DNA from: Acidimicrobiia bacterium
GTDB taxonomy: Bacteria; Actinomycetota; Acidimicrobiia; Spongiisociales; ZC4RG35
Direction of reading: 5' to 3'
NCBI GenBank assembly: GCA_025922945.1
Contig: JAICGW010000008.1
Coordinates: 1-48,042, forward strand
DNA length: 48,042 nt
Within the stretch, counting starts at the first letter, position 1; each line of letters opens with the position of its first letter. This document shows positions 13,837-24,876 of the stretch, one piece after another. The notes under the pieces are model-generated. The model made no database searches. It had not been told where the DNA came from and was given only the letters and a program-made list of their open reading frames with translations. Both the position numbers and the translations under genes were made by a program.

Positions 13837-13869
13837 AACTGATGGGATCACTCAGAACAGGAGGAGCTG

Positions 13870-14448
13870 ATGCCCCGAATCTCCTATCCCGACCTTGACT
13901 CACTCGACCCTGGCGATCGAGAAATAGTCGAATACGGTCGCACTCATTCCACCCCGCGGCCCGAGAGCCAGGCCATTCGCTCTCACGTGCCTGCCGTACT
14001 CCATGCCTTCACCAACGCGTGGCGCACGACGTTCTTGGACGGCGTCTTGGATCATCAGATCAAGGAGCTTTGCCGCGTCTACGTCTCCAAGTCGATCAAA
14101 TGTGAGTATTGAGGAGTACAGCGATCCGTCCAGGCTGGACGGCAAGGACTAACCGAAGCTGATTACGACGAGCTCCTTCAGTTCGAGAACTCGGATCGAT
14201 TTGACGAGCGGGAGAAGACCGCCCTCCGCTACACCAGCGCCATCCTTTGGGACGCCGACATTGCCGACGACAAGCTCTGGGCCGATCTCCATCGCCATTT
14301 CACCGAGCCCGAGCTGGTCGAACTGGGCTTCTTCATCGCCTTGACCAGCGGACAGCAACGGTGGATCAAGACCCTCGGGATCGGCCATCAAGAGGTGCTG
14401 GGCGATACCACCGTCGGCCTGGCCGATGGCAGATCTGAGCGTGTCTGA
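13870..14448 (+). CDS. AhpD-like carboxymuconolactone decarboxylase family protein with in-frame TGA: candidate selenoprotein
   Basis: The frame starts at ATG 13870 after an excellent AGGAGG and meets TGA at 14110-14112 (codon 81), then stays open with clear family sequence (RSVQAGRQGLTEADYDELL, REKTALRYTSAILW, ELVELGFFIALTSGQQRW) to a TGA at 14446-14448. Read through, it is 192 residues. The internal TGA falls in Cys78-Glu-Tyr-TGA, exactly where the second cysteine of the CxxC redox pair belongs. Glu66, Cys78, position 81 and Arg85 keep the AhpD spacing E-11-C-2-C-3-H, with Arg in place of His. A SECIS-like hairpin follows 19 nt later. A Cxx-selenocysteine thiol oxidoreductase or peroxidase-type role is inferred. 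The alternatives are a nonsense mutation or a base-call error (TGC or TGT to TGA). Selenocysteine machinery genes are not in the window. Confidence 0.75.
14113..14150 (+). promoter_or_regulatory. Candidate bacterial SECIS element
   Basis: Directly after the in-frame TGA, CCGTCC (14126-14131) and GGACGG (14137-14142) form a perfect 6-bp stem closed by the 5-nt loop AGGCT. A weaker outer AGT/ACT pairing (14115-14117 with 14148-14150) can extend it. The loop begins 19 nt after the TGA and has G at its second position. Both agree with the known bacterial SECIS rules (short apical loop, early G, about 16-37 nt from UGA). Confidence 0.6.
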
Positions 14449-19135: not shown

Positions 19136-20743
19136 CTAGCCGGCCGCGGTGGTTGTCACCGCCCCTTCGGGGGTGATGGCGAACTCGAGCGTGTTCTGCT
19201 CGGCCTGATAAACCATCCGATAGGCCAGCCCGTTGTGAGTCAGTGATCCGTCGATTCCACCCAGCTCGGGCCGATCCACGTCGAGACCGAGTTGAGCCAG
19301 TAAGGCTTTGCGATCGCTGCCGTCTAGCGAGGGATCGGCGGTCCCAATCAGGATCCCGAGGGCGTTGAGGATCGCCCCGTCGCCCTCCGGGGTCCCCGTT
19401 GGGGTCGCGCGCATCGTGACATTTCCGGCCACGGGATCGAGCACCCCTTCCAGCGTCACGTTCGGGGTCAGGAGCAGGATGAAGGGGGAAGTGAGATCGG
19501 AGAAGAGCACCATGTTGGGAGCCGAGACTTCGGCCAGTGTGTTCCAGCGCTCGGTGAGCGTGGCCGCGTCGGTCTGAAAGAAGGTGGTATCCCCCAGCTC
19601 GGGGGCGGCAGTGGTGGCGACCGTGACCGGGGGAGCGGTGGTGATGACAATCGTGATCGGAGGTGCGGTGGCCTCGGGTTGGGTGGTGGCAGTGGCTCCC
19701 GGATCCCCGGTGCGTCCCATGAGCAGCATCACCGCATACGCTGCTCCAGCCAGGACGGCGACGAGGCCGATGACAACGGCGGTTTTGATGAGCATGCCCC
19801 GGAGGTCGTTGGGACGGAATCGGCGGGGGCGGACCGTTTTCCCCACGCTGTGGGCCCGTACCGAGTCTGCAATCGTGACCTCTTCGCTTGCTTCCTCAGC
19901 CATTTGGGGGATGGGTTCTTCGGGCGGAAGAGGAGTAACCGGCGCCGGCAATGGTGCTGGGGCTTCCGATCCTTCCGGCCGGAAGTTCTTGATGCGGGGC
20001 CTTCTGACTGCTGCCGCCGCCACCGAGACCTCGGGGGTGACAGGTTCCGGTGGTGGCGCCTCGGTTTGGTTCTCTTGCGGCGAATCCTCAGACGGGATCG
20101 GCTCTGGCCCTTCTGGTGGCGGCACCGGCGCGGTGGTGGCGGCAATTGCGTTATCCAGTCCGGTCGGGTCGTCGGCCGTAAAGGTGAGGGTCTCGCCTTC
20201 GGCCTGGATGGCGAAGCGAGAAAAGGTCAGTCGAGCGATCCTGGCCTGCGAATGCTCCCAGGTTCCGATCTCGGCACCTCCGCCCCAGAGAACAATGCCG
20301 GCGCTACCGACCACGATCGAGGCATTGAGGACCTCAGAACCCGTCACCAGAGTCCCAGTGAACCCCGGGGTAGGAAGACTCGAGGAAGCCGCAGACATCT
20401 TCGGCACCGGTTCCGGCTCGGCTGTCTGGGCTTCGGGCTCGGCGGTCTGGGCCGGTTCCGGCTCGGCTGACAGCGCCACCGGCTGCAGGGCTTCGGGCTC
20501 TGGCGGTACCGACTCGGAGGCGGGCGGCGGGGCGTCTGCGGCCACGGGAGCCTTCTGGTGGGTGGACCCATTGGGCATCGACCAGAGTCGTTCGTAGTCT
20601 GAGTTGGCCCTTGTCAGCGGGCTCCAGGCCTCCGTCTTTTCATCTTCGACCGCAAAGGAGGGAACCAAGTCGAGCGGTGCCTGCTCGCTGGGCGCATCCG
20701 GAGATGATTCGTCGGCGGGAGTGGTTTCTGGCATATCGGCCAT
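19136..20743 (-). CDS. Single-pass membrane protein with Pro/Glu/Ala-rich linkers and exported C-terminal domain
   Basis: 535 residues. A low-complexity cytoplasmic N-terminus (repeats of AEPEPAQTAEPEAQ type) leads to a folded domain at about residues 125-200 (GFTGTLVTGSEVLNASIVVGSAGIVLWGGG... IARLTFSRFAIQAEGETLTFTADD), with the look of a PH-like fold. A second Pro-rich linker and a basic stretch (VRPRRFRPNDLRG) precede a transmembrane helix near 317-343. The outer part is a Thr-rich stalk and a domain with NGLAYRMVYQAEQNTLEFAI. The ATG at 20743 is preferred over the TTG two codons earlier. I recognise no named family. Confidence 0.7.
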   Translation of the reverse strand: MADMPETTPADESSPDAPSEQAPLDLVPSFAVEDEKTEAWSPLTRANSDYERLWSMPNGSTHQKAPVAADAPPPASESVPPEPEALQPVALSAEPEPAQTAEPEAQTAEPEPVPKMSAASSSLPTPGFTGTLVTGSEVLNASIVVGSAGIVLWGGGAEIGTWEHSQARIARLTFSRFAIQAEGETLTFTADDPTGLDNAIAATTAPVPPPEGPEPIPSEDSPQENQTEAPPPEPVTPEVSVAAAAVRRPRIKNFRPEGSEAPAPLPAPVTPLPPEEPIPQMAEEASEEVTIADSVRAHSVGKTVRPRRFRPNDLRGMLIKTAVVIGLVAVLAGAAYAVMLLMGRTGDPGATATTQPEATAPPITIVITTAPPVTVATTAAPELGDTTFFQTDAATLTERWNTLAEVSAPNMVLFSDLTSPFILLLTPNVTLEGVLDPVAGNVTMRATPTGTPEGDGAILNALGILIGTADPSLDGSDRKALLAQLGLDVDRPELGGIDGSLTHNGLAYRMVYQAEQNTLEFAITPEGAVTTTAAG

Positions 20744-20810
20744 GATCAATTCTGATATTTATCGCCCCGCGGCGCCAAGCATTGAAGGCAATTTGGCTAG
20801 GGCGCCTGGC

Positions 20811-21392
20811 TCATCCTTCGGTGGAGACAAAGCCCTCACGGGCGAGGAGCACGCGTTTGTTATCGGCTCCTCCGAGCGAATAGGCCCCCAGAGAGCCATC
20901 GGAGCGCACGACTCGGTGGCAGGGCACTATCAAGGGAATCGGATTGTTGGCCATGGCACTTCCCACCGCCCGGGCCGCGCCCGGGCGTCCAGCCTGTCGG
21001 GCCAGCCATTGATAGGGCCGAACTTCACCGCGGGGAATGGTGGTGGCGATGAGCATGATCTCTCGTCGAAAGGCAGTAACCCCTCTCAGGTCGAGGGGAA
21101 GCTGTCCTGGGTTTCCGGCCTCGATTCCCCGATTGATCAATTTCTCCCACCCCGACGGCGGTCGGGCCTCGATGAGTCGACGCCCGAACCGATCGGCGAA
21201 GTAGTCCTCGAAGTCGAGCGCAGCCAGACTTACCGACGAAACGCCGTGCGGATTGAACGTCACCGCCAGTTCGCCCACTGGGCTCTCGAAGATGGAGACA
21301 CCGTCGGCCAAACCGGTGCCGAGCTCGACATTCGCCTTCAGCGACGCCGGCGCCCCTCGACGCAGTCCGGCGAGCGTTTCTTCGATGTTCAT
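20811..21392 (-). CDS. ogt: Methylated-DNA-[protein]-cysteine S-methyltransferase (O6-alkylguanine repair)
   Basis: 193 residues. The C-terminal domain has the acceptor motif IVPCHRVV with Cys158, the Arg-finger/HTH region (YQWLARQAGRPGAARAVGSAMANNPIP) and the closing GGADNKRVLLAREG. It transfers alkyl groups from O6-guanine to itself, a suicide repair reaction. The N-terminal 35 residues (NIEETLAGLRRGAPASL...) are additional to a minimal Ogt. Its ATG overlaps the stop of the sigma factor gene (ATGA), so translation is coupled to a regulator in the place usually held by an anti-sigma factor. Confidence 0.93.
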   Translation of the reverse strand: MNIEETLAGLRRGAPASLKANVELGTGLADGVSIFESPVGELAVTFNPHGVSSVSLAALDFEDYFADRFGRRLIEARPPSGWEKLINRGIEAGNPGQLPLDLRGVTAFRREIMLIATTIPRGEVRPYQWLARQAGRPGAARAVGSAMANNPIPLIVPCHRVVRSDGSLGAYSLGGADNKRVLLAREGFVSTEG

Positions 21393-21943: not shown

Positions 21944-23203
21944 TCAGATGGCGTGAGCGGGCTCGTTCCAGTACCGCGTGGTGACTCGACGCCAAACGAG
22001 CCCAAAAACAATTGCGGCTAACGCCAAACCGAAGAAGATGGAGCGAACCGAATAGGACGTCGCCAGCCAGCCGAACAGCAATTGCGACATGGTCGAGGTG
22101 AGGGTGACGGCGGCAAAGTCAAGGCCGAAGATGCGACCTTTGATGCTGTTGTCGGTGTAGAGCTGAAGGCCGTAGGAAGAGAAGCTCCATTGGCTTCCCG
22201 CCCCGGCATGGCCCAAGAACACCGCTGCGGCGGCGAGGAGCAGCGAGGGGGCTGTCGCGGTACCCAGGTAGGAAAGGCCCCAAAAGGCCATGCACGCCCC
22301 GATGGAGGTGAGCACGGCGCGATCGGTGCCACCCACCATCCGGCGGATGATGAACGGCCCTATGACGACACCGATGCCGCGGGCGGCGAGGAGCCAGCCG
22401 ACACCATCGTCACCTGCGCCGAATGAATCGAGGGCGAGAACCGGGAGGAGCGCCACGGCCCCGCCCCCAAAGATTGCGAAGCCCGCCTTCGAGGTAAGCA
22501 GCGCCGCCACGGTCGGTTTCTGGGCGATGTATGTAAACGCCGAGCGGAGACGCGCTGGAGGCTCGCCACTGGCTCGCTCCTTATGAGGAGAGAGATTGGT
22601 CCGCACCCGCCAGATCAGTGTGGCGGCGACAAGGAAGCTGGTGACGTCGACCGCCACCGCCGCCCGCCGCCCGAACAAGGTGGCGACGACCCCGCCGAGG
22701 GCGGCACCGACCGCGGCCATAGTGCCCCAGGTCGATTCGAGGAGAAACGATGCATCTCCCAGCTCCGCTGGCTTGACGATCACCGGGAGTGACGCCGAGG
22801 AGGCCGGAGTGATCAGGGCACTGAGGGCGGCGAGAATCGACATCGCTCCCAGGACCAGCGTGACTCCGAGCCCGTTGTCGCGGATGAACGACGAGTCGAC
22901 GAAAAGAATTGTGGAGCTCGCCCCAGCGGCGACCAGGCTCGACCAGACGATGATCTTCTTCCGGTTGACGCGATCGGCCAGGACCCCGCCGATCGGAGAG
23001 AGCAAAAAGGCGGGGAGGGTGTTGGCGGTCAGCACGGCCGCGGTGAGGAAAGGCGAGCGACTCAGATCGTGGACCAGAGACAGCATCGGCACCAGCAGGA
23101 ACCAATCGCCTCCGAAGGAGACGAGTCGGGCGAGATAGAGCCTCCGAAAGTCGGCGTTGTCGGCGAGCAATCGGAGATAGCGGCCCCCGGTTCGAGCGGT
23201 CAT
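21944..23203 (-). CDS. MFS transporter
   Basis: A 419-residue major facilitator with about 12 hydrophobic helices. The N-terminus NADFRRLYLARLVSFGGDWFLLVPMLSLVHDLS and the motif GGVLADRVNRKKIIV (motif A in loop 2-3) place it with the EntS/MFS_3-like exporters. The substrate is not evident. Its start overlaps the stop of the next MFS gene upstream by 4 nt (ATGA), so the two are translated together. They might act together or serve related compounds. Confidence 0.85.
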   Translation of the reverse strand: MTARTGGRYLRLLADNADFRRLYLARLVSFGGDWFLLVPMLSLVHDLSRSPFLTAAVLTANTLPAFLLSPIGGVLADRVNRKKIIVWSSLVAAGASSTILFVDSSFIRDNGLGVTLVLGAMSILAALSALITPASSASLPVIVKPAELGDASFLLESTWGTMAAVGAALGGVVATLFGRRAAVAVDVTSFLVAATLIWRVRTNLSPHKERASGEPPARLRSAFTYIAQKPTVAALLTSKAGFAIFGGGAVALLPVLALDSFGAGDDGVGWLLAARGIGVVIGPFIIRRMVGGTDRAVLTSIGACMAFWGLSYLGTATAPSLLLAAAAVFLGHAGAGSQWSFSSYGLQLYTDNSIKGRIFGLDFAAVTLTSTMSQLLFGWLATSYSVRSIFFGLALAAIVFGLVWRRVTTRYWNEPAHAI

Positions 23204-24876
23204 ATGTGGTCGCCGCGGATGGCGTCGAATTCGGCCGTCTCTTCGAGGAGTATCGAACCGTCCGTTTCGTGCATTTGCGTGTGGGTGGTGAGAAGCAGGT
23301 CGAAATCCGGAGGCTTCTCTACGTCGACTGCGATCAGGTGGCGCGACCTTGGTTCACCGGTTCGATCGAACGAGCGCGCCCGGCGGATTAGTTCGGCCGA
23401 GACGTCGTCGATCCGACGATGCTGGTTGAGGTGCTCGCGCCAGGAGACGACGAGGAACATTTCGATCAGGCGACGCGGATCGGAGGCGTCCCGATAAAGA
23501 CGCCAGCGGTAAGCCCCGGTTCGTAGGCGAACCAGGCGCAGGTCCTGCATCACCTCCAGGAAATCGTCGACCTGGCCGGGTTGAAGATCGAAGGCGTTGA
23601 GGACCATCACTGGGCCGCTGTCGAGGGTTTCGACGTGTTCGGGAGGGCTGCGGTCGGGGTCGAATTCGGGCGGGACGATCTCGCTCAGCACCGGGATGCC
23701 CGAGCGAATGGCTGCCACTGCTAACACCAGACCAGCGGAGGAGATCAATACGTACGAAGAGCGAGTGGTGAGAGCGTCAGCGACGGCCCCCGCCAGGATT
23801 GCACCGAATGGGGTCATTCCGGCGAAGGCCAGCGACCAGAGACTCATGGTCCTCCCTCGAACCCAACGAGGACTGAGCATCTGGGCAGTCGAGTTGAGAG
23901 TTGTGGTGGCGAGCACGAGCGAGGCGCCAGAAAGGAGCAGACCGGGAATGGCCCAGAGCAACGACGGGGCCAGCCCGACCGCAATGCCGCCCAACGAATA
24001 CCCACCGATGGCGGCGGGAACGGTCCATTTTCGCAGGCGTTCCGCCAACCGTCGTCTCGCGAACGCCGAGACGATGGCTCCGAAACCCATCGTGCCGAGC
24101 AGCACCCCATAGGCGAGCGAGCCGCCCCCGAGCGCATCGGTGTGACTGGGAAGAACGGTCGGAACGACCGAGGACGACAACCCAAAAAGGGCTCCAAACA
24201 AGAGCACTCGTCGAAAGCTGTGGGTGTAGCGCGCAAACCGCCACCCCAGGGCCATCGCCGTCGTCAGTGGGGCGGCATCGGCGGGCTTCTGGGTGTCAGA
24301 GCGTCCGATGAACCAAAGAGCGACAACGACAGAGATGTAGGAAAGGGCATTGAGTCCGAATCCCGCTTCCGCCCCGATGGTGGCGATCAGCAGCCCGCCG
24401 AGGGCTGGGCCGACGGCCCGGGCGACATTGAAGGAGACCGAGTTGAGCGCCACCGCGGACGCAATCATCTCCCGCGGGACGAGGTCGGGGACCAGAGCCT
24501 GCCAGGCGGGAAGGTTGAAAGAGCCGGCGACACCGATGAGCAGGCCGAGGACGAGGAGACGGACGGGAGTGGCCTCGCCCAAGAAGGCCAGGATGGCCAT
24601 GGCGGCGGCCGCGGTGGCCATCGCAATCTGAGATACCAGCAGTATCCGCACCCGATCGGTCATGTCGGCCACGGCACCCGCCAACAGCGCCAGGGCGAGA
24701 AAAGGCAGCGTGGTTGAAGCCGAGATCAGCCCCACCCAGGTGGCCGAGCCGGTGAGGTCGAGCATCAGCCAGGCAGCCGCCGAGGCTTGGAGAAAGCCTC
24801 CGATATTGGAGAAGAGGGATGCCCCCCACAGCGAACGAAAACCACGAAGCTGCAGCGGGGCCACCGACGAGGTCAT
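23200..24876 (-). CDS. MFS_3 family transporter with C-terminal ABM-like domain
   Basis: 558 residues: an MFS permease (residues 1-400, motif A GAVADMTDRVRILL) followed by a soluble domain of about 130 residues (VMVLNAFDLQPGQVDDFLEVMQDLRLVRLRTGAYRWRLYRD... MFLVVSWREHLNQHRRIDD) that resembles antibiotic-biosynthesis-monooxygenase/dabb-like folds. This permease plus C-terminal domain layout is known from the MFS_3 (EntS-like) family. Export of a small metabolite is likely; the substrate is unknown. It is the first gene of the pair. Confidence 0.87.
   Translation of the reverse strand: MTSSVAPLQLRGFRSLWGASLFSNIGGFLQASAAAWLMLDLTGSATWVGLISASTTLPFLALALLAGAVADMTDRVRILLVSQIAMATAAAAMAILAFLGEATPVRLLVLGLLIGVAGSFNLPAWQALVPDLVPREMIASAVALNSVSFNVARAVGPALGGLLIATIGAEAGFGLNALSYISVVVALWFIGRSDTQKPADAAPLTTAMALGWRFARYTHSFRRVLLFGALFGLSSSVVPTVLPSHTDALGGGSLAYGVLLGTMGFGAIVSAFARRRLAERLRKWTVPAAIGGYSLGGIAVGLAPSLLWAIPGLLLSGASLVLATTTLNSTAQMLSPRWVRGRTMSLWSLAFAGMTPFGAILAGAVADALTTRSSYVLISSAGLVLAVAAIRSGIPVLSEIVPPEFDPDRSPPEHVETLDSGPVMVLNAFDLQPGQVDDFLEVMQDLRLVRLRTGAYRWRLYRDASDPRRLIEMFLVVSWREHLNQHRRIDDVSAELIRRARSFDRTGEPRSRHLIAVDVEKPPDFDLLLTTHTQMHETDGSILLEETAEFDAIRGDHI

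Follow-up and report, generated by a model that had tools for sequence, protein, structure and literature searches.

A probable selenocysteine codon in the redox pair of an AhpD-like protein from Acidimicrobiia

The gene and its predicted fold

The window analyzed here is a stretch of 48,042 nucleotides from an Acidimicrobiia bacterium (assembly GCA_025922945.1, contig JAICGW010000008.1). On its forward strand, a gene of the AhpD/carboxymuconolactone decarboxylase (CMD) family occupies positions 13870-14448, and ORF analysis revealed one in-frame TGA in it, at 14110-14112. When this TGA was taken as a stop, the ORF (13870-14112) encoded an 80-residue stub; when it was read through, the frame continued to a terminal TGA at 14446-14448 and encoded 192 amino acids, exactly at the coordinates of the original prediction. 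A strong ribosome site had also been proposed upstream, and a Shine-Dalgarno sequence, AGGAGG, was indeed found on the same strand at 13859-13864, 5 nt before the ATG.

The Pfam CMD model (PF02627) matched residues 41-122 of the read-through protein with 31.2 bits against a cut-off of 23, placing the protein in the family. This match spans the TGA, in line with the prediction that the family sequence is intact on both sides of it. A Glu-(x11)-Cys-x-x-Cys/Sec arrangement is present, in which Glu66 (14065-14067), Cys78 (TGT, 14101-14103) and Cys or Sec at position 81 (the TGA at 14110-14112, C-terminal member of the pair) were invariant across 31 sequences. Every homologue in the comparison, whether of the Sec or the Cys form, had Cys78, and only the redox-dead partner paralogues described below lacked it. 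In AhpD, the C-terminal Cys of the pair is the attacking residue, and a catalytic His stands four residues after it. The window protein has Arg85 in place of this His and in this respect is not an AhpD proper, the partner of AhpC/lipoamide. Both Glu66 and Arg85 had been predicted to keep the AhpD spacing. Glu66, whose role we take to be that of the AhpD catalytic glutamate, was invariant among the 31 homologues; Arg85 does lie at the place of the AhpD His, but it is not invariant.

The AF2 model of the read-through protein (pLDDT 90) had an AhpD-core fold. Foldseek matched it to the AhpD-core structures 2prr and 6k40, to PA0269 and to the debrominase Bmp8 (6ohi), with TM values of about 0.7-0.77 for 2prr, 6k40 and Bmp8. 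Bmp8 was a profile match as well, with its Cys pair aligned. While 6k40, 2prr (AhpD/peroxidase-related) and Bmp8 share the modeled fold and the position of the Cys pair with the window protein, they carry Cys at the position of the proposed Sec and are only 16-20% identical to it. Bmp8 acts on bromopyrroles; our literature search on Bmp8 and AhpD returned nothing useful.

Recurrence of the TGA, downstream selection and the SECIS hairpin

Among 138 genomes of the same Acidimicrobiia order, 12, including that of the window, carried an orthologue that was at least 72% identical. All 12 had TGA at codon 81, the 11 others being 72-88% identical to the window protein, and Cys-form paralogues and more distant homologues of the same order carried TGC or TGT at this codon. 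A scan of species genomes yielded 80 loci; column 81 was TGA in 47 of them and a Cys codon (TGC or TGT) in 33. Eight of the 47 were Acidimicrobiia orthologues already counted, and the remaining 39 were about 58-71% identical and came from several phyla. Outside Acidimicrobiia, the Sec form was found in Chloroflexota (including Ktedonobacterales), Rokubacteria, Armatimonadota, Binatota and others, as well as in Pseudomonadota, Burkholderiales and records titled Deltaproteobacteria. Position 81 is therefore Cys or TGA in the relatives and codon 78 of the window gene is TGT, which bears out the placing of the TGA at the second Cys of the CxxC pair. Considering that about 50 genomes carry this TGA independently of one another, it is not the product of chance or sequencing error. 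In a tree of 118 proteins from which the codon-81 column was excluded, the Sec and Cys forms fell into blocks that needed 6 changes, against about 41 with shuffled labels; this tree was built quickly and has some long branches, and we claim no direction of change from it.

Genomes with the Sec form often had one or two Cys-form paralogues as well (loci L043, L047, L055, L056 and others), which in some cases (contigs G105:C3 and G065:C17) lay no farther than about 10 kb from the Sec gene. Further divergent CxxU proteins were encoded at L064 (6262-6771 of G105:C11), L065 and L066 (G022 and G023) and L057 (G089:C74); their genes share both the TGA column and the hairpin spacing.

Selection at the protein level persists downstream of the TGA, as the mean pN/pS in the 12 orthologues was 0.185 after the codon and 0.233 before it. 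Codons 86-91 were near-invariant including their third positions (TCC, GTC, CAG, GGA, CGG), whereas the neighboring codons varied freely. Such frozen silent sites are expected from an overlapping RNA element, and a bacterial SECIS hairpin lies precisely there, at 14125-14143 on the forward strand. Its core stem, CCGUCCA/UGGACGG, pairs 14126-14132 with 14136-14142 around an apical GGC loop (14133-14135), and the outermost pair, 14125/14143, is broken in the window but U-A in many relatives. Bacterial SECIS rules call for G at loop positions 1 and 2, a spacing of 16-37 nt and an MFE of -7.5 or lower (PMC13188914). The window hairpin agrees with all three: its loop is GGC, it lies 20 nt from the TGA, and its energy is -10.3 kcal/mol.

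The spacing of the stem-loop was the same in all aligned Sec genes, with a small apical loop bearing GG or GU, and the stem was kept with different letters in three divergent subfamilies (CCGUCC/GGACGG, CUGCUU/AAGCAG and CCGUCU/AGACGG). We compared the hairpin in 22 sequences and in 47. In the set of 47, 91% of cells were paired, two-sided changes occurred in 6 of 8 pairs, and the covariation was 0.447; shuffled data gave 0.195 (0 of 500), and slid structures no more than 0.117. Genome-wide, the sole match of a SECIS covariance model was the window site (60.5 bits, E 6e-9); none of the Cys homologues scored above 17.4 bits, the hairpin being absent there. An Rfam scan of 13900-14400 gave chance matches only. 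When 14110-14152 was folded as a single sequence, an alternative structure had the minimum energy and the stability was not unusual (z -0.73 versus shuffles), so the assignment of the SECIS rests on covariation.

Selenocysteine machinery and the reading of the codon

The four genes for selenocysteine synthesis and insertion, which the original prediction had named as a check, were all present in the same genome, on contig C27, and scored above their cut-offs. selA (20016-21317, 438 bits), selB (21332 to about 23068, 260 bits) and selC, with anticodon UCA (23086-23176, 71.7 bits), adjoin in a row, and selD (23701-24627, 366 bits) lies beside them on the opposite strand. SelB exceeded its cut-off in 113 of the 138 genomes of the order. 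Other selenoproteins of the genome were sought by protein family as well as with the SECIS model, and two formate dehydrogenase alpha-like genes (L159 on G000:C51 and L163 on G000:C96) proved to have TGA where Sec classically stands, in the contexts CNRT-U-HAPSVAG and QARL-U-HGPTVAS, and both TGAs were followed by hairpins comparable to that of the window. Our literature search found no paper on selenoproteins of Acidimicrobiia.

A broken Cys codon, arising in a pseudogene or through an error of sequencing or assembly and leaving only the 80-residue stub, would take a single base change from TGC or TGT, and the assembly is a draft of 179 contigs. Such damage does not explain why some 50 independent assemblies, representing several phyla, share this TGA at codon 81, nor does it explain the strong purifying selection after it, the conserved SECIS or the presence of the Sec machinery; we reject this reading, refuted above all by the recurrence of the TGA, and its chance of being right is negligible. 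A conserved frame would look the same if a suppressor or reassigned tRNA inserted a residue other than Sec (Cys, Trp or Arg) at the UGA, and Cys is the residue of the family. However, UGA also serves as the terminal stop of this gene in the 12 orthologues, beside UAA and UAG, the hairpin obeys the SelB/SECIS rules, the selA-selB-selC-selD set is complete, and the formate dehydrogenase-like genes have UGA at a known Sec site. Insertion of another residue is thus highly improbable, and we rejected an alternative code because UGA is still a terminal stop and both the SECIS and the sel genes are present.

The selenocysteine reading of the original prediction gained support from the column shared by TGA and Cys, the covarying SECIS, the sel genes and the downstream purifying selection, and the presence of the TGA in about 50 independent assemblies takes the place of the read support that the prediction had asked for. 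Based on the position of the codon, the SECIS, the machinery and the selection, Sec is almost certainly inserted at codon 81, and we are confident that 13870-14448 encodes a full-length selenoenzyme of the AhpD/CMD fold with a Cys78-x-x-Sec81 motif and SECIS-guided decoding of UGA. In the mechanism that we propose, SelB would bring Sec-tRNA(Sec) to the UGA at 14110-14112, guided by the SECIS about 20 nt downstream, and the codon would be read through; in the absence of selenium, the 80-residue stub would be made. As Sec occupies the C-terminal, attacking position of AhpD, the best reading is that Sec81 is the nucleophile and Cys78 the resolving residue. Sec81, as a selenolate, would attack a substrate that is most likely a hydroperoxide or some other electrophile, the Cys78 thiol would resolve the intermediate to a selenenyl sulfide, Glu66 would act as the base, and a cellular thiol reductant would recycle the Cys78/Sec81 pair.

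Known relatives, genomic context and possible function

The original prediction was correct that CxxU AhpD-like selenoproteins have precedents in environmental data: they were described in a 2005 study of the Sargasso Sea and a 2008 study of GOS (PMC1088965, PMC2398784) and are listed in reviews of 2022 and 2026 (PMC9312934, PMC13188914). The kind has thus been known since 2005, and the window protein adds a member. Like the window gene, the Sargasso Sea and GOS selenoproteins (COG2128 YciW) combine an AhpD/CMD fold, CxxU, a downstream SECIS and widespread Cys homologues; they came from marine metagenome reads, whereas the window belongs to an Acidimicrobiia lineage, and its protein is a possible member of the COG2128 group. 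Every NCBIfam model that the window protein matched scored it below the cut-off. TIGR01926 (peroxidase-related enzyme), the model named for AhpD-like selenoproteins by the 2026 review (PMC13188914), gave 23.8 against 81.8 bits. The best match, NF053654 (GroundWater_YciW (seleno)protein), gave 48.2 bits against a cut-off of 310 and was matched weakly by all 31 relatives, so that the window protein is related to this YciW-related family but is not a member. The GSU3128 family (NF041047) and the CMD-like selenoprotein (PF02627) likewise belong to the CMD family and have CxxU. GSU3128 is a short single-domain form (a model of 84 positions), to which the window protein scored 17 bits against a cut-off of 110; PF02627 it matches above the cut-off, as given above.

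The most notable side observation was that divergent relatives repeatedly adjoin a redox-dead paralogue. A second Sec (CxxU) AhpD-like family, 34-37% identical to the window protein, was found at seven loci (L058-L063 and L067), and the paralogue directly 3' of its Sec gene has D-P-Y-F in place of the redox pair. At five Chloroflexi loci (L127, L131, L133, L137 and L152), an AhpD-like gene of about 120 codons follows the Sec gene closely, overlapping it by a few bases in some, and lacks the CxxC segment altogether; these pairs are apparently another case of a Sec protein with a dead partner.

The neighbors of the window gene, a GNAT acetyltransferase and a NUDIX hydrolase, gave no hint at its function. 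Elsewhere, Amidohydrolase_2 was found near 12 of 47 Sec loci and 1 of 33 Cys loci, in counts that ignore relatedness, and LigB dioxygenase, CoA-transferase III and ABC uptake genes lay near other Sec loci. These contexts make a catabolic rather than an antioxidant role a real possibility, and the match of Bmp8 in both profile and fold, with its Cys pair aligned, points the same way. The selenoenzyme would then serve, for example, a selenolate-driven dehalogenation or isomerization in the degradation of aromatic or carboxylic compounds; this retains Sec81 and departs from our preferred explanation in the substrate only. However, the contexts are mixed, related loci cannot be counted as independent and no such neighbors occur in the window, and we consider a catabolic role possible but rather unlikely. 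More speculatively still, the Sec proteins might form an unnamed multi-phylum AhpD-like subfamily that serves catabolism instead of peroxide defense and that, in several branches, acts as a hetero-oligomer with the paralogue lacking the redox pair.

Taking the gene as that of a selenoenzyme, standard gene calling would cut it to a stub of 80 residues, and since the Sec subfamily extends across several phyla without a model that names it, its copies are probably mis-annotated. The Sec and Cys paralogues that occur together in the same genomes offer a natural experiment on the benefit of selenium in the AhpD fold. As judged from the SelB counts, selenocysteine use is widespread in this order of Acidimicrobiia.
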